In this document: positions 52,376 to 59,647 of the stretch, one piece after another | Position numbering within the stretch: position 1 is the stretch's first letter | Layout: every line of letters starts with the position of its first letter | NCBI RefSeq assembly: GCF_008370495.1 | Contig: NZ_VTUX01000009.1 | Coordinates: 62,376 to 126,375, forward strand | Direction of reading: 5' to 3' | DNA length: 64,000 nt | Origin: Pseudohalioglobus sediminis | GTDB lineage: Bacteria; Pseudomonadota; Gammaproteobacteria; Pseudomonadales; Halieaceae | The notes under the pieces: generated by a model | Databases searched by the model: none | What the model saw: only the letters and a program-made list of their open reading frames with translations | Told to the model about the DNA's origin: nothing | Program-made: the position numbers and the translations under genes

Positions 52376-52457
52376 GCGTTCTTGTCGGAGCCTGACTGCC
52401 GGGGCGTTTGCTGATGCATTTACATCGTTATGCTGGCTGCAAGCTTCGGTGTTGGGT

Positions 52458-52524
52458 CCTGCGGGGGAAAGGGTTCAGGGCTCGGAAGGCCAAGATACTC
52501 GCTCTGAACCCTTTCCCCCGCAGG
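52458..52524 (-). repeat. Long hairpin repeat, copy 1 (inverted orientation)
   Basis: 24-bp arms (52458-52481 and 52501-52524, one mismatch) enclose a 19-nt loop that reads GAGTATCTTGGCCTTCCGA on the minus strand. Flanks CGATGTTGCAAGGG and AGGACC match the other copies. No T-run; not a terminator. Confidence 0.8.
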
Positions 52525-52635
52525 CCCTTGCAACATCGAGGTTGCGTTGAAGATTGTGGCAGGGCCGGCCTCGCGGTATTGGCCGCGCCATGCCCAGCGC
52601 CTCCGGCGCTACCAGACCCCTCGGCAAACCCTAAA

Positions 52636-53157
52636 GCCCGCTCGATAGTGCAAGGGCCTTCCCGATACTGGGTTCAGGGTGAGTATCCTGGCCTTCCGAG
52701 CCCTGAATCCATTATCGGGAAGGACCAAATACCCAGGCTCAAAGCCAAAGGAGCAAACTAGATGCCATTACCTGCCATGCCATGAACCCGCTCCCTCGCA
52801 AACCCTAAAGCCCGCTCGATGGTGCAAGGGCCTTCCCGATACTGGGTTCAGGGTGAGTATCTTGGCCTTCCGAACCCTGAATCCATTATCGGGAAGGACC
52901 AAATACCCAGGCTCAAAGCCAAAGCAGCAAGCTCGATGCTCCTGCCCGCTGAGCCATGAACCCGCTCCCTCGCAGGCCCTAAAGCCCGCTCGATAGTGCA
53001 AGGGCCTTCCCGATACTGGGTTCAGGGTGAGTATCCTGGCCTTCCGAGCCCTGAATCCATTATCGGGAAGGACCAAATACCCAGGCTCAAAGCCAAAGCA
53101 GCAAGCTCGATGCTCCTGCCCGCCGAGCCCTGAATCCAGTATCGGGAAGGACCAAAC
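52636..53157 (+). repeat. 174-bp tandem repeat with hairpin core, three copies
   Basis: GCCCGCTCGATRGTGCAAGG begins at 52636, 52810 and 52984, an exact 174-bp period, with few differences between copies. Each unit holds a 23-bp-armed hairpin (52657-52723, 52831-52897, 53005-53071) whose loop is TGAGTATC(C/T)TGGCCTTCCGA(G/A). Since 174 is divisible by three, open frames run through the array on both strands; these look like by-products, not genes. Confidence 0.85.
53128..53150 (+). repeat. Hairpin repeat, 3'-half only
   Basis: CCCTGAATCCAGTATCGGG and AGGACCAAACACCCAG match the right arm and flank of the tandem copies; the left arm is missing. Note the CAG/CTG change that would pair with the left arm of the neighbouring copies. 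Confidence 0.7.
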
Positions 53158-53344
53158 ACCCAGCCTGGTACGATGCCCCGCTGCACCGGGCGCCCAAATC
53201 CGGGCAGCATTTCACAACTCTGGCCAGCCCCCACCCCGGATTCAGATTGAGTTCAGACTCAGCCGCATAATGCGCGCGTCGCGTTACATAATGCAGCAAT
53301 AACAATCGCGCCCAACAACAATCCAAACAAGCGAGAGTGAGAAG

Positions 53345-55711
53345 ATGAGAATTGTGACTCAATTAGCCGTCGTGCTACTGGGATTCAGCCTGCTGGCAGC
53401 GTGTTCCGACGGCGGCAGTTCGTCCCGCCCGGTGGCGCAACCCGAGGTGGAACAGCCCGCCGAGCCGGTGGACCCCAACCTGATCGTCATAGAAGCCGGT
53501 GAGGGCTTCCAGACCCGCCTGATCGAGGCGCTGATCGGTGCCGAGCCCGGCCACGTGATAGAGCTGCCCGCGGGTGAGTTCGACCTCGATACCGCACTGG
53601 GCATCGACGTGGACAACGTCACCCTGCGCGGCCAGGGCCTGGAGCAGACAGTGCTCAATTTCGGCACCCAGACCAGCGGCGGCGAAAGCCTGCGCGTAAC
53701 CAGCAACAACGTGCTGCTGGAAGACTTTGCCGTGGTGGATCCGCCTTCTGACGGTATCAAGTTCAAGTTCAGCAACGGCGTTACCATGCGCCGCATCCGC
53801 GTGGAATGGACCTGCGGCGCCTGCGAGGAAAATGGCGCCTACGGCCTGTACCCGGTGCAGACAGAAAACGTGCTGATCGAAGACAGCATCGTGATCGGCG
53901 CCTCTGACGCCGGTGTGTACGTCGGCCAGTCTGACAAGATCATCGTGCGTCGCAATACGGTTTCGTTCAACGTGGCCGGTATCGAGATCGAGAACAGCAC
54001 CAACTCCGAGGTCTACGACAACACCGCCGTGGACAACACCGGCGGCATCCTGGTGTTCGACCTGCCCAACCTGTCCCGCGAGGGCGCACGCACCCGCGTT
54101 TACAACAACGTGGTACGCGGCAACAACACCCCCAACTTCGCGCCGGAAGGCAATATCGTTGGCGTGGTACCCACCGGTACCGGCATGCTGATCATGGCCT
54201 TCTCGGATGTGCAGGTGTTCGACAACGTCATCGAAGACAACCAGTCCGCCGCCATCGTCATCGTGCACTACGACATCAGCGGCTTTACCACCGACGACCC
54301 GAACTACGACGGTGCGCCGCGTCGTGTGTACATCAGCAACAACCAGTACGCCAATAACGGCTACGAACCCGCAGACCTGGCCACCGACGTGGCCGGCCTG
54401 TTCACCGGCCCCGGCGGCATCCCGCAGATCGTCTACGACGGCATCGGCGAAGCCGGCAGTCCGTTTGCCGAGGAAGACCGCATCTGCATCAACGAGGACG
54501 AATCCGTCACCCGTGGTGTGATCTTCGGACCCAACGGCACCGAGGTAGGCAGCGAGTTCTTCAACTGCGCCCACGCCTCCCTGCCCGAGGTGGTACTGGA
54601 TACGCCGGATGAGATCCTCGAAGGCGAGAAGCCCCTGACCCAGGAAGAGATTGCCGCGCTGTGTACACCGCAGGGCAATGGCCCCAACTTCGAGGCGCTG
54701 GAAGTGAACTGCCCGTCGCTGGAAGGCTACAACCTGTTCAGCGACGCGCTGGAGCCACGCCGCGCGCCCAACAGCGGCATCGCCTATGACCTGATCACGC
54801 CGCTGTTCACCGACTACGCCGAGAAGTACCGCTTCATCTACATCCCGGAAGGCAAGCAGGCGGCCTACTCCAGCCGCGACAGTCTGGACTTCCCGGTGGG
54901 CACCATCATCGCCAAGACCTTCACCATGCCCAACGACTTCCTCAATGAGTCTGCCGGTGAGGTGATCATCGAGACGCGCCTGTTGCTGCACCGCAAGGAC
55001 GGCTGGGCCACCCTGCCCTACACCTGGCGCGAAGACGGCACCGGCGCCGACCTGACCCTGGCCGGCGGCACCCGCTCACTGACCTGGATCCACTCTGATG
55101 GCAGCACGCGCAGCACGGATTACGTCATCCCCGACGCCAACAGCTGCAAGACCTGCCACAACGCCACCCGCCCGGAAACCGGCAGCGGTCGCAACATGGA
55201 AACGGTCATCATCCCCATCGGCCCCAAGGCTCGCTTCCTCAACATGGACAATGTCTATGCCGGCAAGCGCGCCAACCAGCTGGAATACATGTGGGAGCAG
55301 GACGTACTCGTGGGCCTTCCGGCTGACCTGGACAGCATCGACACGGTACCGGCCTGGGACGACCCGGCAGCAGACCTGGAAGCGCGCGCCAAGGGCTACC
55401 TGGATATCAACTGCGCCCACTGCCATACCCCGGACGGCTTCGCCAGCAACTCTGGCCTGTCGCTGGAATACTGGCGTGAGGTCGACACGGCCTACGGTAT
55501 CTGCAAGCAGCCGGTCGCCGCGGGCTCCGGTTCCGGCGGCCTCAAGAACGACATCGTCCCCGGCGACGCGGACGCTTCCATCACTGTGTACCGCATGGAC
55601 TCCAACGAGCCGGACGTGCGCATGCCGGAGATTGGCCGCAGCCTGGTTCACGACGAGGGCGTAGCGCTGATCCGCGAGTGGGTGAACAGCCTCTCTGGCG
55701 GCTGCGAATAA
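53345..55711 (+). CDS. Lipoprotein fusing a parallel beta-helix to a diheme cytochrome c (SO_2929/SO_2930-like)
   Basis: 788 residues. Lipobox LAAC with cysteine 20. Residues 45-385 form a right-handed parallel beta-helix (repeated short strands with N and G turns, such as VLIEDSIVIGASDAGVYVGQ and NNVVRGNNTP). Residues 440-788 match the SO_2930/HNE_0200-type cytochrome family: ELFS-like start NLFSDALEPRRAPNSGI, YDLITPLFTDYAEKYRFIY and two haem motifs, CKTCH at 601-605 and CAHCH at 690-694. These two families are, to my knowledge, normally encoded by neighbouring genes; here they are one polypeptide. Outer-membrane or periplasmic redox role is likely. GAGAGTGAG precedes the ATG. Confidence 0.85.
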   Translation: MRIVTQLAVVLLGFSLLAACSDGGSSSRPVAQPEVEQPAEPVDPNLIVIEAGEGFQTRLIEALIGAEPGHVIELPAGEFDLDTALGIDVDNVTLRGQGLEQTVLNFGTQTSGGESLRVTSNNVLLEDFAVVDPPSDGIKFKFSNGVTMRRIRVEWTCGACEENGAYGLYPVQTENVLIEDSIVIGASDAGVYVGQSDKIIVRRNTVSFNVAGIEIENSTNSEVYDNTAVDNTGGILVFDLPNLSREGARTRVYNNVVRGNNTPNFAPEGNIVGVVPTGTGMLIMAFSDVQVFDNVIEDNQSAAIVIVHYDISGFTTDDPNYDGAPRRVYISNNQYANNGYEPADLATDVAGLFTGPGGIPQIVYDGIGEAGSPFAEEDRICINEDESVTRGVIFGPNGTEVGSEFFNCAHASLPEVVLDTPDEILEGEKPLTQEEIAALCTPQGNGPNFEALEVNCPSLEGYNLFSDALEPRRAPNSGIAYDLITPLFTDYAEKYRFIYIPEGKQAAYSSRDSLDFPVGTIIAKTFTMPNDFLNESAGEVIIETRLLLHRKDGWATLPYTWREDGTGADLTLAGGTRSLTWIHSDGSTRSTDYVIPDANSCKTCHNATRPETGSGRNMETVIIPIGPKARFLNMDNVYAGKRANQLEYMWEQDVLVGLPADLDSIDTVPAWDDPAADLEARAKGYLDINCAHCHTPDGFASNSGLSLEYWREVDTAYGICKQPVAAGSGSGGLKNDIVPGDADASITVYRMDSNEPDVRMPEIGRSLVHDEGVALIREWVNSLSGGCE

Positions 55712-55766: not shown

Positions 55767-55775
55767 GCTATCGCG

Positions 55776-55957
55776 GTGAGCATTGCATAGATGGCTTTCT
55801 CGTCGGGTGTTTGGCCTCACGCGGTACAGGGTTCAGAGCCTTGAAGGTCGGTGAGCCTTGCATAGATGGCTTTCTGGTTGGGTATTTGGCCCCGCGCGGT
55901 AAAAGGTTCAGGGCTCGGAAGGCCAAGATACTCGCTCTGAACCTTTTGCCACGCAGG
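55776..55957 (-). repeat. Hairpin repeats, partial copy plus full copy (inverted orientation)
   Basis: Two 75-bp-spaced units start GTGAGC(A/C)TTGCATAGATGG at 55776 and 55851. The first carries only one arm (CGCGGTACAGGGTTCAGAGC). The second continues into a full hairpin with arms 55891-55914 and 55934-55957 and the conserved loop GAGTATCTTGGCCTTCCGA on the minus strand. Same family as 52458-53150. Confidence 0.75.
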
Positions 55958-56026
55958 TCCCGGCACCATCGAGTTTGCTTTGCAGAACGCTACTGGGTCC
56001 TTGTGCTGGGAACCGGTCTGTCCCCG

Positions 56027-56189
56027 GAAGGCCGACCCCCGGAAGGCCGGCCCCCGGAAACTCGTTTCTTGTCATCCCCGCGCAGGCGGGGATCCAGGGG
56101 CTGGCCATCCAGGGGCTGGCCATCTAGGTAAGTGACGGAACTCACTGGATTCCGCAATGGCGGACCACCGCCTTCGCGGGAATGACGGT
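56027..56189. repeat. Short direct repeats and GGGGAT palindromes
   Basis: CCCCGGAAGGCCG occurs twice (plus a third partial) at 56022-56058; the palindrome ATCCCCGC-GCAG-GCGGGGAT lies at 56074-56093; CCAGGGGCTGGCCAT is duplicated at 56095-56124; and a second composite palindrome (GGATTCCGCAATGGCGGACC...GCGGGAATGAC) lies at 56150-56189. The last matches 5945-5985 near the GIY-YIG gene, with paired changes in both arms. Confidence 0.75.
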
Positions 56190-56480
56190 TTTAGCGAGAT
56201 ATCCATGTTTTCTGACTGAAACCAGTTAGCGTCAGCTATATGGGTTAAAGACTCAATGGCAACTGGATCAGAGTCGGGCGAGCGGCTGAAATGACCGCTG
56301 CAAGTGCGCGCCGCAGGAGTGGAGCGAGAGGGTCTGCCCCGCTTTATCGGGTACAGCGAAGCGCTTTAAGGCTCGCGACCGACTAAGGGTACCCCGGAGG
56401 TGGTGCGGCATTCCGAGCGCGTGTTCAAGACGGCCAGTTTCAGGCACTCGCCCGACGGCTTTGGCGCCACGCGATCCCAT
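56190..56480. other. Intergenic region without recognisable gene
   Basis: About 290 bp between two repeat blocks. Short open frames exist on both strands but none has domain features. It could hold debris of an old mobile insertion; I see no intact transposase or integrase motif. Confidence 0.45.
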
Positions 56481-56514
56481 AGCAAACCACAAAACCCGCT
56501 CGATGATGCAGGGG

Positions 56515-56581
56515 CCTGCGGGGTAAAGGGTTCAAGGTGAGTATCTTGGCCTTCCGAACCTTGAACCCTTTACCGCGCGGG
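56515..56581 (+). repeat. Long hairpin repeat, full copy
   Basis: Arms 56515-56537 and 56559-56581 with loop TGAGTATCTTGGCCTTCCGAA. The inner arm bases are TTCAAGG/CCTTGAA where other copies have TTCAGGG/CCCTGAA, a compensated change. Flanks ACCCGCTCGATGATGCA and GGCCAAACGCCCAACC follow the family consensus. Confidence 0.8.
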
Positions 56582-56637
56582 GCCAAACGCCCAACCCGAA
56601 AGCCATCGGACAGCACTGTACATCCCTGCCTTCCGAG

Positions 56638-56660
56638 CCCTGAACCGTTTACCGCGCAGG
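56638..56660 (+). repeat. Hairpin repeat, 3'-half only
   Basis: CCCTGAACCGTTTACCGCGC plus AGGACCAGGAAC match the right arm and flank of the family; preceded by the loop end CTTCCGAG. The left arm is missing. Confidence 0.7.
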
Positions 56661-56777
56661 ACCAGGAACTAACCTCCAAAGCATTTACCTCCCGCAAAAA
56701 CCCGCAGAACCGCTACCGCTTGATTTTCGCCACCACTCCCCGCAACCTGTGCAGACCGATAACGAAGAACCGCCGCC

Positions 56778-57080
56778 ATGAACCTGAACCAGACCATCAC
56801 GCTTTCACCCGAAGTCATTTCCCAGGAAGTTTCCGGGGAGACCGTGTTACTGGACCTGCAGAGCGAGAACTACTTCGGCCTGGACGAAGTCGGCACGCGC
56901 ATCTGGCAGCTGATACAGGAATCCGGGCAGTTGCAAACCGTCTACGATACGTTGCTGCAAGAATACGACGTGACGCCCGCACAGCTGCAGCAGGATCTGG
57001 AAAAGCTGCTGCAAGCCATCCAGGCTGCCGGGCTGGTCAGCCTGGAAGCAGCCAGCAACGAGACAGCGGCCAACGATTAA
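56778..57080 (+). CDS. PqqD family protein (orphan RiPP-recognition-type domain)
   Basis: 100 residues. PqqD/RRE fold signature: ETVLLDLQSENYFGLDEVGTRIWQL (about 22-46), then a helical half YDTLLQEYDVTPAQLQQDLEKLLQ and AAGLVSL. Such domains bind leader peptides for radical-SAM or lasso-type maturation. No precursor peptide, radical SAM, cyclase or ABC gene is adjacent. It lies 25 bp before a molybdopterin oxidoreductase, so the two are probably co-transcribed. No RBS better than GAAGAACC is seen. Confidence 0.8.
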   Translation: MNLNQTITLSPEVISQEVSGETVLLDLQSENYFGLDEVGTRIWQLIQESGQLQTVYDTLLQEYDVTPAQLQQDLEKLLQAIQAAGLVSLEAASNETAAND

Positions 57081-57105: not shown

Positions 57106-59235
57106 ATGCCTACTACCCACCGCCGCGCCTGCCACCTCTGTGAAGCCATCTGCGGGCTGGTCATCGAAACCGAGGGCGAGCAGATTCTCTCCATCAAGGG
57201 CGACAAGGACGACCCCCTCAGCCGCGGCCACATCTGCCCCAAGGCGGTGGCGCTGCGGGACATCCACGAGGACCCGGATCGACTGCGCCAACCGGTGAAA
57301 AAAGTCATCGGCGACAGCGGCGAGACCCGCTGGGAAACCCTCTCCTGGGACGAGGCCCTGGACACCGCCGCCGCGGCCCTGGTGCGCACTATCGGTGAGC
57401 ACGGCGTGCATGCAGTGGGCGTTTACGCCGGCAATCCCTCGGTACACAACTACGGCATGATCACCCATGCCGGCAACCTGTTCCGGCATATCCGCACCAA
57501 CAACCGTTTCTCCGCCACCTCGGTGGACCAGTTACCGCACCACCTCGCCGCGTACTGGCTCTATGGCCACAAGGTGCTGTTTGCCGTGCCCGACATCGAT
57601 CGCACGCAGTATTTCCTGATGCTGGGGGCCAACCCCCTGGCCTCCAACGGCAGCCTGTGGACGGTGCCGGATGTGAAGAAGCGCATCAAGGCGCTGCAGG
57701 CGCGCGGTGGCAAACTGGTGGTGGTCGATCCGCGGCGCACGGAAACCGCGGAGCTGGCCAGCGAGCATTTCTTTATCACCCCCGGCAGCGATGCGCTGTT
57801 GCTGCTGGCACTGCTGAACACGCTGTTCAGCGAAGGCCTGGTGGACCTCGGTCACCTGGCGCCCTTCACCACCGGGCTGGCGGAAGTGGAGCAGGCCATC
57901 GCCGGGTTCACCCCGGAGTTCGCCGCGCCCCATACCGGCATCGAGGCCGACGCCATCCGCCGGCTGGCGCGGGAGCTGTCGGCGGCGGAGGCCGGCATCT
58001 GCTATGGGCGCATGGGTTGCTCAACCCAGCGCTACGGGGCCCTGTGCCAGTGGCTGATCCAGCTGATCAACATCGCCACCGGCAACCTCGACAAACCGGG
58101 TGGCAGCCTGTTTGCCACGCCGGCGGTGGACACCGTGGCCACATCCGGGCCCGGTGGCTTCAACCGCCACCAGAGTCGCGTGCGCGGCCTGCCCGAGTTC
58201 GACCGGGAACTGCCCGCCGCGGCCATGGCCGAGGAAATCACCACCCCCGGTGAAGGCCAGATCCGCGCGCTGTTCACCGGTGCCGGCAACCCGGTGCTGT
58301 CCACCCCCAACGGCGCGCAACTGGACGCGGCGCTGGAACAACTGGATTTCATGGTATCGCTGGACCCGTACATCAACGAAACCACCCGGCACGCCGATAT
58401 CATCCTGCCGCCCACATCACCACTGGAGCATGACCACTACGACCTCACCTTCCACCTGCTGGCGGTGCGCAACACCACCCGCTACAACCCGCCCCTGTTC
58501 GACAAGCCCGAGGGCGCCCTGCACGACTGGGAGATTTTTTCCGAACTCGGCAAGCGTGTCGCCGCGGGCCTCGGCCAGGACGCCCAGGAGGCGGTGCCGC
58601 CGGAGCAGATCGTCGATATGGGCCTGAGGGCGGGGCCGTGGCAGGAGCGCGGGCTCAGCCTGGCGGAGCTGAAGAACAACCCCTCGGGCATCGACCTCGG
58701 GCCATTGCAGTCGCAGCTGCCGGAGCGGCTGATGACCCCCGACAAACAGATCCGCTGCGATGCCGCGGCACCACTCGCGGACCTGGCCCGGCTGCACGCG
58801 GAATTTGCCGATGCAGGGCAGCAGGCCAACGGTGACGGCACGCCACTGCGGCTGATTGGCCGGCGCCATGTGCGCTCCAACAATTCGTGGATGCACAACT
58901 ACCGCCGGCTGGTCAAAGGCCGCGATCGTTGCACCCTGCTGATGCACCCGGACGACATGGCCGCGCGCGCTATCGCCGATGGCAGCAGCGTACAGGTGCG
59001 CTCACGGGTCGGTGAGCTCGCGGTGACGGTGGAGGCCAGCGATAGCATGATGCCCGGCGTGGTCAGCCTGCCCCACGGCTACGGCCACAATCGCCAGGGC
59101 ATCCGCATGGACATCGCCGAGGCCCACGCCGGTGTCAGCTGCAACGACCTCACCGACGACCAGTACCTCGACGAGCTTTGCGGCAACGCCGCCGTCAATG
59201 GCGTCCCGGTGGAAGTATCCGCGGCCGCGCCCTGA
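57106..59235 (+). CDS. Molybdopterin oxidoreductase with [4Fe-4S] cluster
   Basis: 709 residues of the DMSO reductase superfamily. N-terminal cluster ligands C9, C12, C16 and C44 (CHLCEAIC...HICPK). Molybdopterin domains follow, with GANPLASNGSLWTVPDVKKR and FTGAGNPVLSTPN, and the C-terminal cofactor domain has LIGRRHVRSNNSWMHNYRRL and SLPHGYGHNRQG. No Tat signal, so probably cytoplasmic. It looks like the NasA/FdhF-like soluble group. The expected electron-transfer partner is not adjacent. Confidence 0.9.
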   Translation: MPTTHRRACHLCEAICGLVIETEGEQILSIKGDKDDPLSRGHICPKAVALRDIHEDPDRLRQPVKKVIGDSGETRWETLSWDEALDTAAAALVRTIGEHGVHAVGVYAGNPSVHNYGMITHAGNLFRHIRTNNRFSATSVDQLPHHLAAYWLYGHKVLFAVPDIDRTQYFLMLGANPLASNGSLWTVPDVKKRIKALQARGGKLVVVDPRRTETAELASEHFFITPGSDALLLLALLNTLFSEGLVDLGHLAPFTTGLAEVEQAIAGFTPEFAAPHTGIEADAIRRLARELSAAEAGICYGRMGCSTQRYGALCQWLIQLINIATGNLDKPGGSLFATPAVDTVATSGPGGFNRHQSRVRGLPEFDRELPAAAMAEEITTPGEGQIRALFTGAGNPVLSTPNGAQLDAALEQLDFMVSLDPYINETTRHADIILPPTSPLEHDHYDLTFHLLAVRNTTRYNPPLFDKPEGALHDWEIFSELGKRVAAGLGQDAQEAVPPEQIVDMGLRAGPWQERGLSLAELKNNPSGIDLGPLQSQLPERLMTPDKQIRCDAAAPLADLARLHAEFADAGQQANGDGTPLRLIGRRHVRSNNSWMHNYRRLVKGRDRCTLLMHPDDMAARAIADGSSVQVRSRVGELAVTVEASDSMMPGVVSLPHGYGHNRQGIRMDIAEAHAGVSCNDLTDDQYLDELCGNAAVNGVPVEVSAAAP

Positions 59236-59250
59236 GCGCAGGCTGCTTGC

Positions 59251-59560
59251 CAGCTAAAAACTCCTCGCGGCTGTGGCCGCTCCTACAAGCACCAGCAACC
59301 CACCCCGTGGGAGCGGCTACAGCCGCGATAACCCCACGCCACAAAAGGTACCCGCCAGCTAAAAACTCCTCGCGGCTGTGGCCGCTTCTACAAGCACCAC
59401 CAACCCACCCCGTAGGAGCGGCAACAGCCGCGATAACCCCACGCCACAAAAGGTACCCGCCAGCTAAAAACTCCTCGCGGCTGTGGCCGCTCCTACAGGC
59501 CCCACCAACCCACCCCGTGGGAGCGGCTACAGCCGCGATAACCCCGGGCAGAGAAATGTG
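59251..59560. repeat. 105-bp tandem REP array
   Basis: CAGCTAAAAACTCCTCGCGG starts at 59251, 59356 and 59461 (105-bp period). Each unit carries an inverted REP pair (GCGGCTGTGGCCGC... and GAGCGGCTACAGCCGC). Very few changes between copies (for example CTTCTA for CTCCTA, GGCAAC for GGCTAC) indicate a recent amplification of a whole BIME. Confidence 0.9.
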
Positions 59561-59647
59561 CTAAAACAACGACTCCAGCTGCTACTATGCAAGCCGGTAT
59601 ACTAGACTCGTGCTTTCATGGCACCACTTCCTGGGGGAGACAATCAC

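Follow-up and report, generated by a model that had tools for sequence, protein, structure and literature searches.

A beta-helix/dihaem lipoprotein of Pseudohalioglobus sediminis as a candidate envelope oxidoreductase with a P460-like haem region

In a 64,000-nucleotide stretch of the Pseudohalioglobus sediminis genome (contig NZ_VTUX01000009.1, positions 62,376 to 126,375; hereafter the window), a single gene encodes a lipoprotein in which a parallel beta-helix of the NCBIfam family TIGR03805 is followed by a dihaem cytochrome c region of the family TIGR03806 (Table 1). The gene is one open reading frame (ORF) with both domains recognizable, it carries residues that are invariant among its relatives, and in the counted relatives the beta-helix is linked to c-type haem. 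Our best explanation, held at a little short of an even chance, is that the protein may be an envelope oxidoreductase combining an AlgE-like beta-helix with a P460-like haem (haem 1) and a His/Met haem (haem 2); a beta-helix coupled to c-type haem in every counted gene over the cut-off, and a dihaem module that exchanges beta-helices for sugar dehydrogenases, have the look of envelope oxidoreductase parts. What seems to be new is the P460-like haem-1 region with its conserved cross-link lysine. The fusion itself is not new: it recurs in several lineages, the dihaem family is already named after a Shewanella gene, and the TIGR03805 entry presumably already mentions fused forms of the pair. In the titles, abstract starts and passages of the matches listed from the open-access literature, a range that lies outside most subscription papers, we found no link of TIGR03806, SO2930 or SO_2931 to P460 and no account of the beta-helix fusion.

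Both halves scored above their NCBIfam cut-offs. TIGR03805 matched residues 59–367 over its full length (371.4 bits against a curated cut-off of 141.5), and TIGR03806, the SO2930 family of diheme c-type cytochromes, matched residues 455–783 with profile positions 1–314 of 314 covered (387.9 bits against 313.3), which bears out the domain assignments made in a preliminary description of this DNA. Its picture of one lipoprotein with one lipobox and two CxxCH motifs, at residues 601–605 and 690–694, also holds exactly, in an intact ORF of 788 amino acids. The full-length model is confident (predicted local distance difference test, pLDDT, 92.5; predicted template modelling score, pTM, 0.86), residues 1–26 being the sole stretch below 50, and guanine-plus-cytosine content at third codon positions is 0.80–0.91 along the whole ORF, junction included. 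A serine at position +2 after the lipobox cysteine goes with outer-membrane sorting of lipoproteins, and a simple pattern found a lipobox-like motif in 38 of the 41 fused ORFs of loci L052–L130. The Pfam scan gave Beta_helix and NosD in the first half (NosD, PF05048, at 45.7 against a cut-off of 23.6, as in many beta-helices) and sub-threshold cytochrome matches only in the second. Membership was rejected for the NosD-maturation family (TIGR04247, 37.6 bits against 300), for the MtrC/OmcA decahaem family (TIGR03507, 9.9 bits against 209.3, with two haem motifs rather than ten) and, for the TIGR03806 part, for the CCP/MauG family (PF03150, 11.1 bits against 25.6).

From its predicted structure, the haem-1 region looks like a cytochrome P460/c'-beta fold. 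The AlphaFold model of residues 443–788, made with 55 relatives, is confident (pLDDT 94.4, pTM 0.91), and when it was compared by VIA-align with the 1000 top chains of the PDB, every one of the first 11 ranks went to a cytochrome P460 or c'-beta structure (Z 7.4–5.3; 117–134 residues aligned at 8–13% identity), the next row having a Z of 4.5. In profile comparison by hhalign, the first 215 positions matched a set of 18 P460-family sequences plus NsP460 (18 of 19 rows, L158 having been dropped) with a probability of 88.7%, and four other masters gave 84–91%, as against 0.2% for the reversed alignment and at most 0.5% for 30 column shuffles. Single relatives reached the Pfam P460 profile at E ≤ 1 in 23 of 55 cases, the best at 0.0024. 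The P460/c'-beta superfamily (NsP460, NeP460, McP460) appears to resemble the window protein in the predicted haem-1 fold, in a CxxCH motif placed after the sheet and in an FPxGTxxxK lysine motif, and the window protein differs from it by the second haem domain that follows, the beta-helix that precedes and a Pfam score under the cut-off. An invariant tyrosine just before the haem motif (Tyr593) may match the P460 tyrosine that the review PMC11928373 describes near the proximal histidine.

Residue conservation was read from relatives in 130 loci, five of which were left out: L001 duplicates the window gene, L002 is a beta-helix paralogue, and L037, L115 and L117 showed no beta-helix (the first and the last of these three start at a contig end). 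The remaining 125 loci gave 149 aligned TIGR03806 rows, the window's own and 24 second copies included, after matches of fewer than 280 query positions had been left out. Local alignments place FPVGTIIAK524 of the window protein on the FPxGTxxxK motif of P460, and the mutant chain 6w6n identifies the aligned lysine as Lys106 of NsP460, which is listed as the cross-linking residue in Table 2 of PMC11928373. The K524 position is a lysine in 149 of 149 rows and in all eight divergent fusions examined (three to a beta-helix, five to another domain described below), a sample in which the beta-helix fusion L137 lies just over the TIGR03806 cut-off and which leaves out other sub-cut-off rows such as G336, G314 and G304. 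By contrast, the 18 P460-family comparators have K in seven, L in four, M in four, R in two and G in one, so the lysine is not forced by the fold. The same review reports that a lysine put at this site in two c'-beta proteins led to the cross-link, with peroxide treatment if needed, and that the haem potential of wild-type P460 is −340 to −424 mV. Also invariant are E543 and R545, on the strand after K524 in the model. As for ligands, no His or Met reached 95% conservation as a possible sixth ligand of haem 1 in these rows besides H605, H692 (inside CAHCH; 145/149), H694 and M760 (Met-Pro in 149/149), and the last two appear to be the natural ligands of haem 2.

The beta-helix half of the predicted model has the fold of the AlgE A-module. 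Its best structural matches were AlgE6 (5lw3; Z 33.4, root-mean-square deviation 2.1, 292 residues aligned) and AlgE4 (2pyg; Z 33.0) at 20% identity, followed by alginate epimerase/lyases and then by RbmB and polygalacturonases; NosD had a Z of 28.3. The catalytic residues of AlgE are given in PMC7385640 as Tyr149, Asp152, His154 and Asp178. Since pairing by hhalign failed (2.5%, without profile support), the two active-site regions were paired by eye, and YGLYPV (166–171) then falls on YGFDPH of AlgE, with the Tyr kept and Asp152 and His154 without counterparts; the beta-helix domain has no His conserved at 97%, and the AlgE catalytic set as a whole is not kept. The likeness to AlgE mannuronan C5-epimerases and other polysaccharide beta-helices consists of the fold and, by eye, a Tyr-Gly-x-x-Pro at the place of the active site. 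When the beta-helix profile was searched by sequence, it matched nothing but phage appendage proteins and a putative pectin lyase (E 1.8e-04 to 8.7e-04).

The beta-helix is coupled to haem well beyond the window. In an even draw of 299 genomes across the phylum, each of the 42 TIGR03805 genes over the cut-off either shares a frame with a c-type haem protein or adjoins one, and none stands alone: 33 by TIGR03806 over its cut-off, two in frame with a sub-cut-off TIGR03806 match (G078 and G169, a second fragment row of G169 not being counted), six by a MauG-type gene, and one being a second gene of the window genome itself. This second beta-helix gene (contig C21) has 34% identity to the first and a C-terminal monohaem cytochrome c motif. 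It was matched at E ≤ 1e-20 in 47 of 61 genomes of the window's family, some of the matches being window-type fusions, and a MauG-type gene adjoins its kind in 15/15 family loci checked, the window genome's own included, and in 6/6 other genomes checked. In the window genome itself (L140:4781-6406 (-) and L140:6294-7526 (-), on C21), the beta-helix/cytochrome c gene comes directly after a CCP/MauG (MbnH-like) dihaem gene; in five of the six other genomes an extra small ORF with two CxxCH motifs lies alongside. Thirty-five residues are common to 125 TIGR03806-linked and 15 MauG-linked beta-helices, among them Y166, P170, D188, Y192, E214, E216, N217 and N231: the beta-helix keeps one motif set whichever its haem partner, and this constancy, like the haem coupling of all 42 genes, also seems new.

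The dihaem module also changes partners, being fused in five of the eight divergent fusions to a glucose/sorbosone dehydrogenase (GSDH) domain. These five are L131:4380-10496 (+), L132:2696-9190 (+), L133:845-4456 (+), L138:3364-5571 (+) and L139:3054-5627 (+); their frames reach 2165 amino acids, L131 adding F5/8-type C and ThuA domains and L132 adding CBM26 and PSCyt/PSD domains. GSDH-cytochrome fusions and MauG/MbnH systems, like the window protein, combine a non-haem domain with c-type haems in a modular way, and they differ from it in their catalytic domains, with no membership by sequence.

Fused and split forms of the TIGR03805/TIGR03806 pair, for which the preliminary description had proposed a search, were both found: of the 125 loci, 62 carry the two domains in a single frame and the other 63 in separate frames. 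This locus set is biased toward kin of the fused query, 79 loci being the best 79 of at least 567 relatives. The 299-genome draw is less biased, and TIGR03806 is over the cut-off there in 33 genomes (35 rows); by open-frame length, five of these (window genome included) are fused and 28 are split. Thus, the earlier statement that the two are normally separate neighbours stands for most genomes, but not for the Shewanella loci considered below. Every one of the 35 TIGR03806 rows has TIGR03805 over the cut-off within 3 kb on the same strand, and because the two halves are fused or strictly adjacent throughout, the arrangement argues that beta-helix and dihaem part act together. The preliminary inference of a physical complex is partly supported in this respect, although as news the fusion has little to add, given its recurrence. 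In the two NCBIfam families, then, both halves are over the cut-offs and the partners adjacent or fused in 33/33 genomes, with no structural difference found; the family names give no function.

Fusion occurs in Halieaceae, in Shewanella, Ferrimonas and Endozoicomonas, and in Oligoflexus, and we rejected the idea that the window's fusion is unique. Among 100 genomes of the window's family, 32 of the 38 TIGR03806 rows over the cut-off lie in frames of at least 794 amino acids, and the 19 new family loci (L033–L051) comprise 17 fused, one split and one broken by a contig end. A quick tree built from 149 TIGR03806 domains requires three changes of the fused label, and starred branches force at least two of these. 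Fusions of the Halieaceae type are placed close to those of the Shewanella type, split Marinobacter and Alcanivorax being interspersed with them, while two Oligoflexus-type fusions are found elsewhere, inside the split side. Because of these three changes, fusion or fission is taken from the tree to have occurred more than once. In 56 of the 63 split pairs, the second gene's reading frame is free of stops from, at the latest, the position right after the stop of the first (28 overlapping, 28 directly after the stop in the same frame). The latter 28, in which only the stop codon separates the two stop-free stretches (e.g., L065:5860-8217 (+)), are a count that partly reflects how the loci were found. 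By the simple pattern, lipobox-like motifs occur in 29/63 beta-helix ORFs and 34/63 dihaem ORFs of split pairs. Going by record titles, SO2930/SO_2931-type cytochromes are found in Bacteroidota, Myxococcota and others as well as in many Pseudomonadota.

The named Shewanella loci that were fetched are fused in 24 of 24 cases, and those of Ferrimonas and Endozoicomonas in three of three, all of them picked by similarity to the fused query. In 22 of the 24 Shewanella loci (e.g., L078:8735-9916 (+)) and in both Ferrimonas loci, the fused gene is followed by an extra TIGR03806 ORF, which is partial in one Shewanella locus and which the Endozoicomonas locus L087 lacks; the 24 downstream copies with enough sequence to enter the tree group as a single clade. 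In S. xiamenensis (L078) and in strain ANA-3 (L082), a fused lipoprotein gene is followed by a stand-alone TIGR03806 gene, and because of this arrangement, extended from these two strains to MR-1, the outer-membrane lipoprotein SO_2931 is probably the fusion. The two adjacent outer-membrane cytochromes of MR-1, SO_2931 and SO_2930, would then fit a fused gene plus a stand-alone TIGR03806 gene, whereas the window genome has a single TIGR03806 match; Halieaceae fusions also have a shorter linker than Shewanella-type ones. The earlier identification of SO_2929 as the beta-helix was not confirmed, and the literature match for that name is off topic.

We propose the following mechanism for the window protein. 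The lipoprotein would probably sit in the outer membrane and may face the cell surface, and its AlgE-like beta-helix may present a conserved site for a ligand that is probably a glycan. Haem 1, in the P460-like domain, would be open on its distal side and probably cross-linked to the lysine K524, and its chemistry would act on material bound by the beta-helix or close beside it. If K524 is cross-linked, the potential of haem 1 should be very low, and haem 1 would therefore give electrons to haem 2, a putative His/Met class I-type relay, and haem 2 to a partner. The preliminary suggestion that a haem domain might be set on a surface-binding beta-helix is right as to anatomy, yet it probably undersold the haem, with its P460-like region and invariant lysine, and possibly the beta-helix too. 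A wider claim is possible rather than probable: that the whole TIGR03806 family, SO_2931 included, carries a lysine-cross-linked P460-type haem on the envelope, beyond the P460s of the nitrogen cycle, plugged into an AlgE-like beta-helix or a pyrroloquinoline quinone (PQQ)-type sugar dehydrogenase, which would represent a new modular class of extracellular haem oxidoreductases acting at polysaccharide.

Several observations weigh against the envelope oxidoreductase. A VIA-align Z below 8 can reflect a common arrangement and calls for independent support; Foldseek found no match at E ≤ 0.001, with P460 2je2 at rank 16 (E 0.63), and the dihaem part of the window protein scores 16.1 bits on Pfam P460 (PF16694) against a cut-off of 27, so that we propose a remote relative of P460 and do not file the protein as a member. 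No P460 structure was matched in PDB sequence searches, whether with the dihaem profile or with the whole protein. (A match to 9l08, a covalently connected c555 trimer, at E 6.5e-07 was set aside, as it covers only the surroundings of one CxxCH stretch; a single c552 gave 0.33.) K524 could instead be structural or an axial ligand. The global alignment places neither of the candidates E543 and R545 with confidence on Glu96, the distal carboxylate (Glu96/Asp102) required by active P460, and the divergent fusion L132 has lost both residues. The host organisms are mostly not nitrifiers, and because of this and of the unplaced carboxylate, hydroxylamine oxidation is not favoured as the function. 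About 30 sub-cut-off TIGR03805 matches fall outside the haem-coupling count, and among the loci compared and the clusters listed, no gene neighbour common to most lineages hints at a substrate. Finally, one paper places a beta-helix labelled TIGR03805 in an exopolysaccharide cluster of Burkholderia, and the relevant passage names no cytochrome (PMC3584217); the same label has been used for a beta-helix protein of Streptococcus salivarius (passage in PMC5847202).

The GSDH fusions could also mean that the haems merely accept electrons, and this leads to an alternative that we regard as unlikely while giving it real weight, namely that the beta-helix itself is the catalyst, oxidizing or epimerizing sugar acids at an AlgE-derived site, and that the dihaem module only removes electrons like the cytochrome of PQQ sugar dehydrogenases. 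The fusion to GSDH in five of the eight divergent cases counts in its favour, and the 35-residue set kept across partners and the second beta-helix family, with a C-terminal cytochrome c of its own beside a MauG/CCP dihaem gene, agree with it as well. However, the catalytic Asp and His of AlgE are not kept, the Pfam and NCBIfam scans recognized no cofactor motif in the beta-helix, and a cross-linked P460 haem at the potentials given above would be a poor acceptor for sugar oxidation.

It is less plausible still, and on the whole improbable, that the protein is a plain surface electron-transfer cytochrome on a binding beta-helix, as the preliminary description pictured it. This would match its lipoprotein signal and also the way in which SO_2931 is usually grouped with other outer-membrane cytochromes in Shewanella; the literature, in the passages available, lists SO2930/SO_2931-type cytochromes as electron-transfer proteins without a function, and a passage of one study describes the deletion of SO_2931 along with others (PMC5829830). 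Against this, one of the two haem regions resembles a ligand-binding fold with an invariant Lys, and the protein has two haem motifs only and no MtrC/OmcA family match. Moreover, many of the named hosts are not known for extracellular respiration.

We consider very unlikely a MauG/MbnH-like role, in which the P460-like haem and haem 2 would make a protein-derived cofactor in the beta-helix, which then does the work. The constant place of the other beta-helix family beside a MauG/CCP-type gene (15/15 family loci, 6/6 others) and the invariance of Tyr166 and Tyr192 in both beta-helix families speak for such a role; but there is no direct sign of a modified residue, and the TIGR03806 part is not MauG-like, given its CCP_MauG score. 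A frameshift, a misassembly or a chance joining of two genes, against which the preliminary description had advised a check, has next to no chance and was rejected, as relatives from separate assemblies at 47–84% identity keep the same single frame and nothing was found in favour of an error.

Table 1. The fused lipoprotein gene, its domains and residues, and the genes downstream (positions in the window; aa, amino acids).
Feature	Position	Strand	Remark
Whole fused lipoprotein gene, 788 aa	53345..55711	+	ATG start, no internal stop; one open frame in relatives too
Lipoprotein signal peptide	53345..53404	+	Lipobox LAAC (L17-A-A-C20), Cys20, +2 residue Ser
Right-handed parallel beta-helix TIGR03805, aa 45-405, AlgE-like fold	53477..54559	+	Profile and model
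Conserved beta-helix motifs, aa 163-241	53831..54067	+	NGAYGxYPV, DAGxYVGQS, NVAGIEIEN, NTGGILVFDLP
Linker, beta-helix to dihaem region, about aa 406-452	54560..54700	+	
P460/c'-beta-like haem-1 domain, aa 453-652	54701..55300	+	
Codon of K524	54914..54916	+	Aligned with the P460 cross-linking lysine
Haem 1 attachment motif CKTCH, residues 601-605	55145..55159	+	Cys, Cys and His kept in 149/149 rows
Haem 2 attachment motif CAHCH, residues 690-694	55412..55426	+	PSCyt1/class I-like; Cys, Cys and His kept in 149/149 rows
Codon of M760	55622..55624	+	Invariant Met-Pro, likely sixth ligand of haem 2; 149/149 rows
PqqD-like small protein	56778-57080		Downstream of fused gene
Molybdopterin oxidoreductase	57106-59235		Adjoins PqqD-like gene

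The neighbours of the fused gene in the window are no evidence for its function. Upstream lie a DUF4437 cupin gene and a gene that by eye is of LysR type; among 15 neighbourhoods compared within the available flanks, the downstream genes (Table 1) are common only to the closest relative, L162, and the upstream genes to none. The widest of the neighbour clusters listed among the 79 loci belong to Shewanella and its allies, with up to 21 loci, and outside that group to two clusters of ten loci and few genera each, by eye regulator-like and short-chain-dehydrogenase-like. Imperfect interspersed palindromic repeats flank the fused gene on both sides (52434-53160 and 55774-56664), with arms of about 27 nucleotides and 19–21 nucleotides between them, the upstream set including three tandem copies of 174 nucleotides. 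Farther downstream, an apparent ORF between genes at 59178-59564 contains tandem repeats of PVGAATAAITPRHKRYPPAKNSSRLWPLLQAP.

As a little-studied family that keeps K524 throughout, TIGR03806 may be a candidate family of haem enzymes rather than of simple electron wires. If haem 1 is a P460-type catalytic haem, then a large family would shift from wire to enzyme, P460 chemistry would gain a home beyond nitrification, and its close association with a beta-helix of the polysaccharide type would indicate where to seek the substrate.

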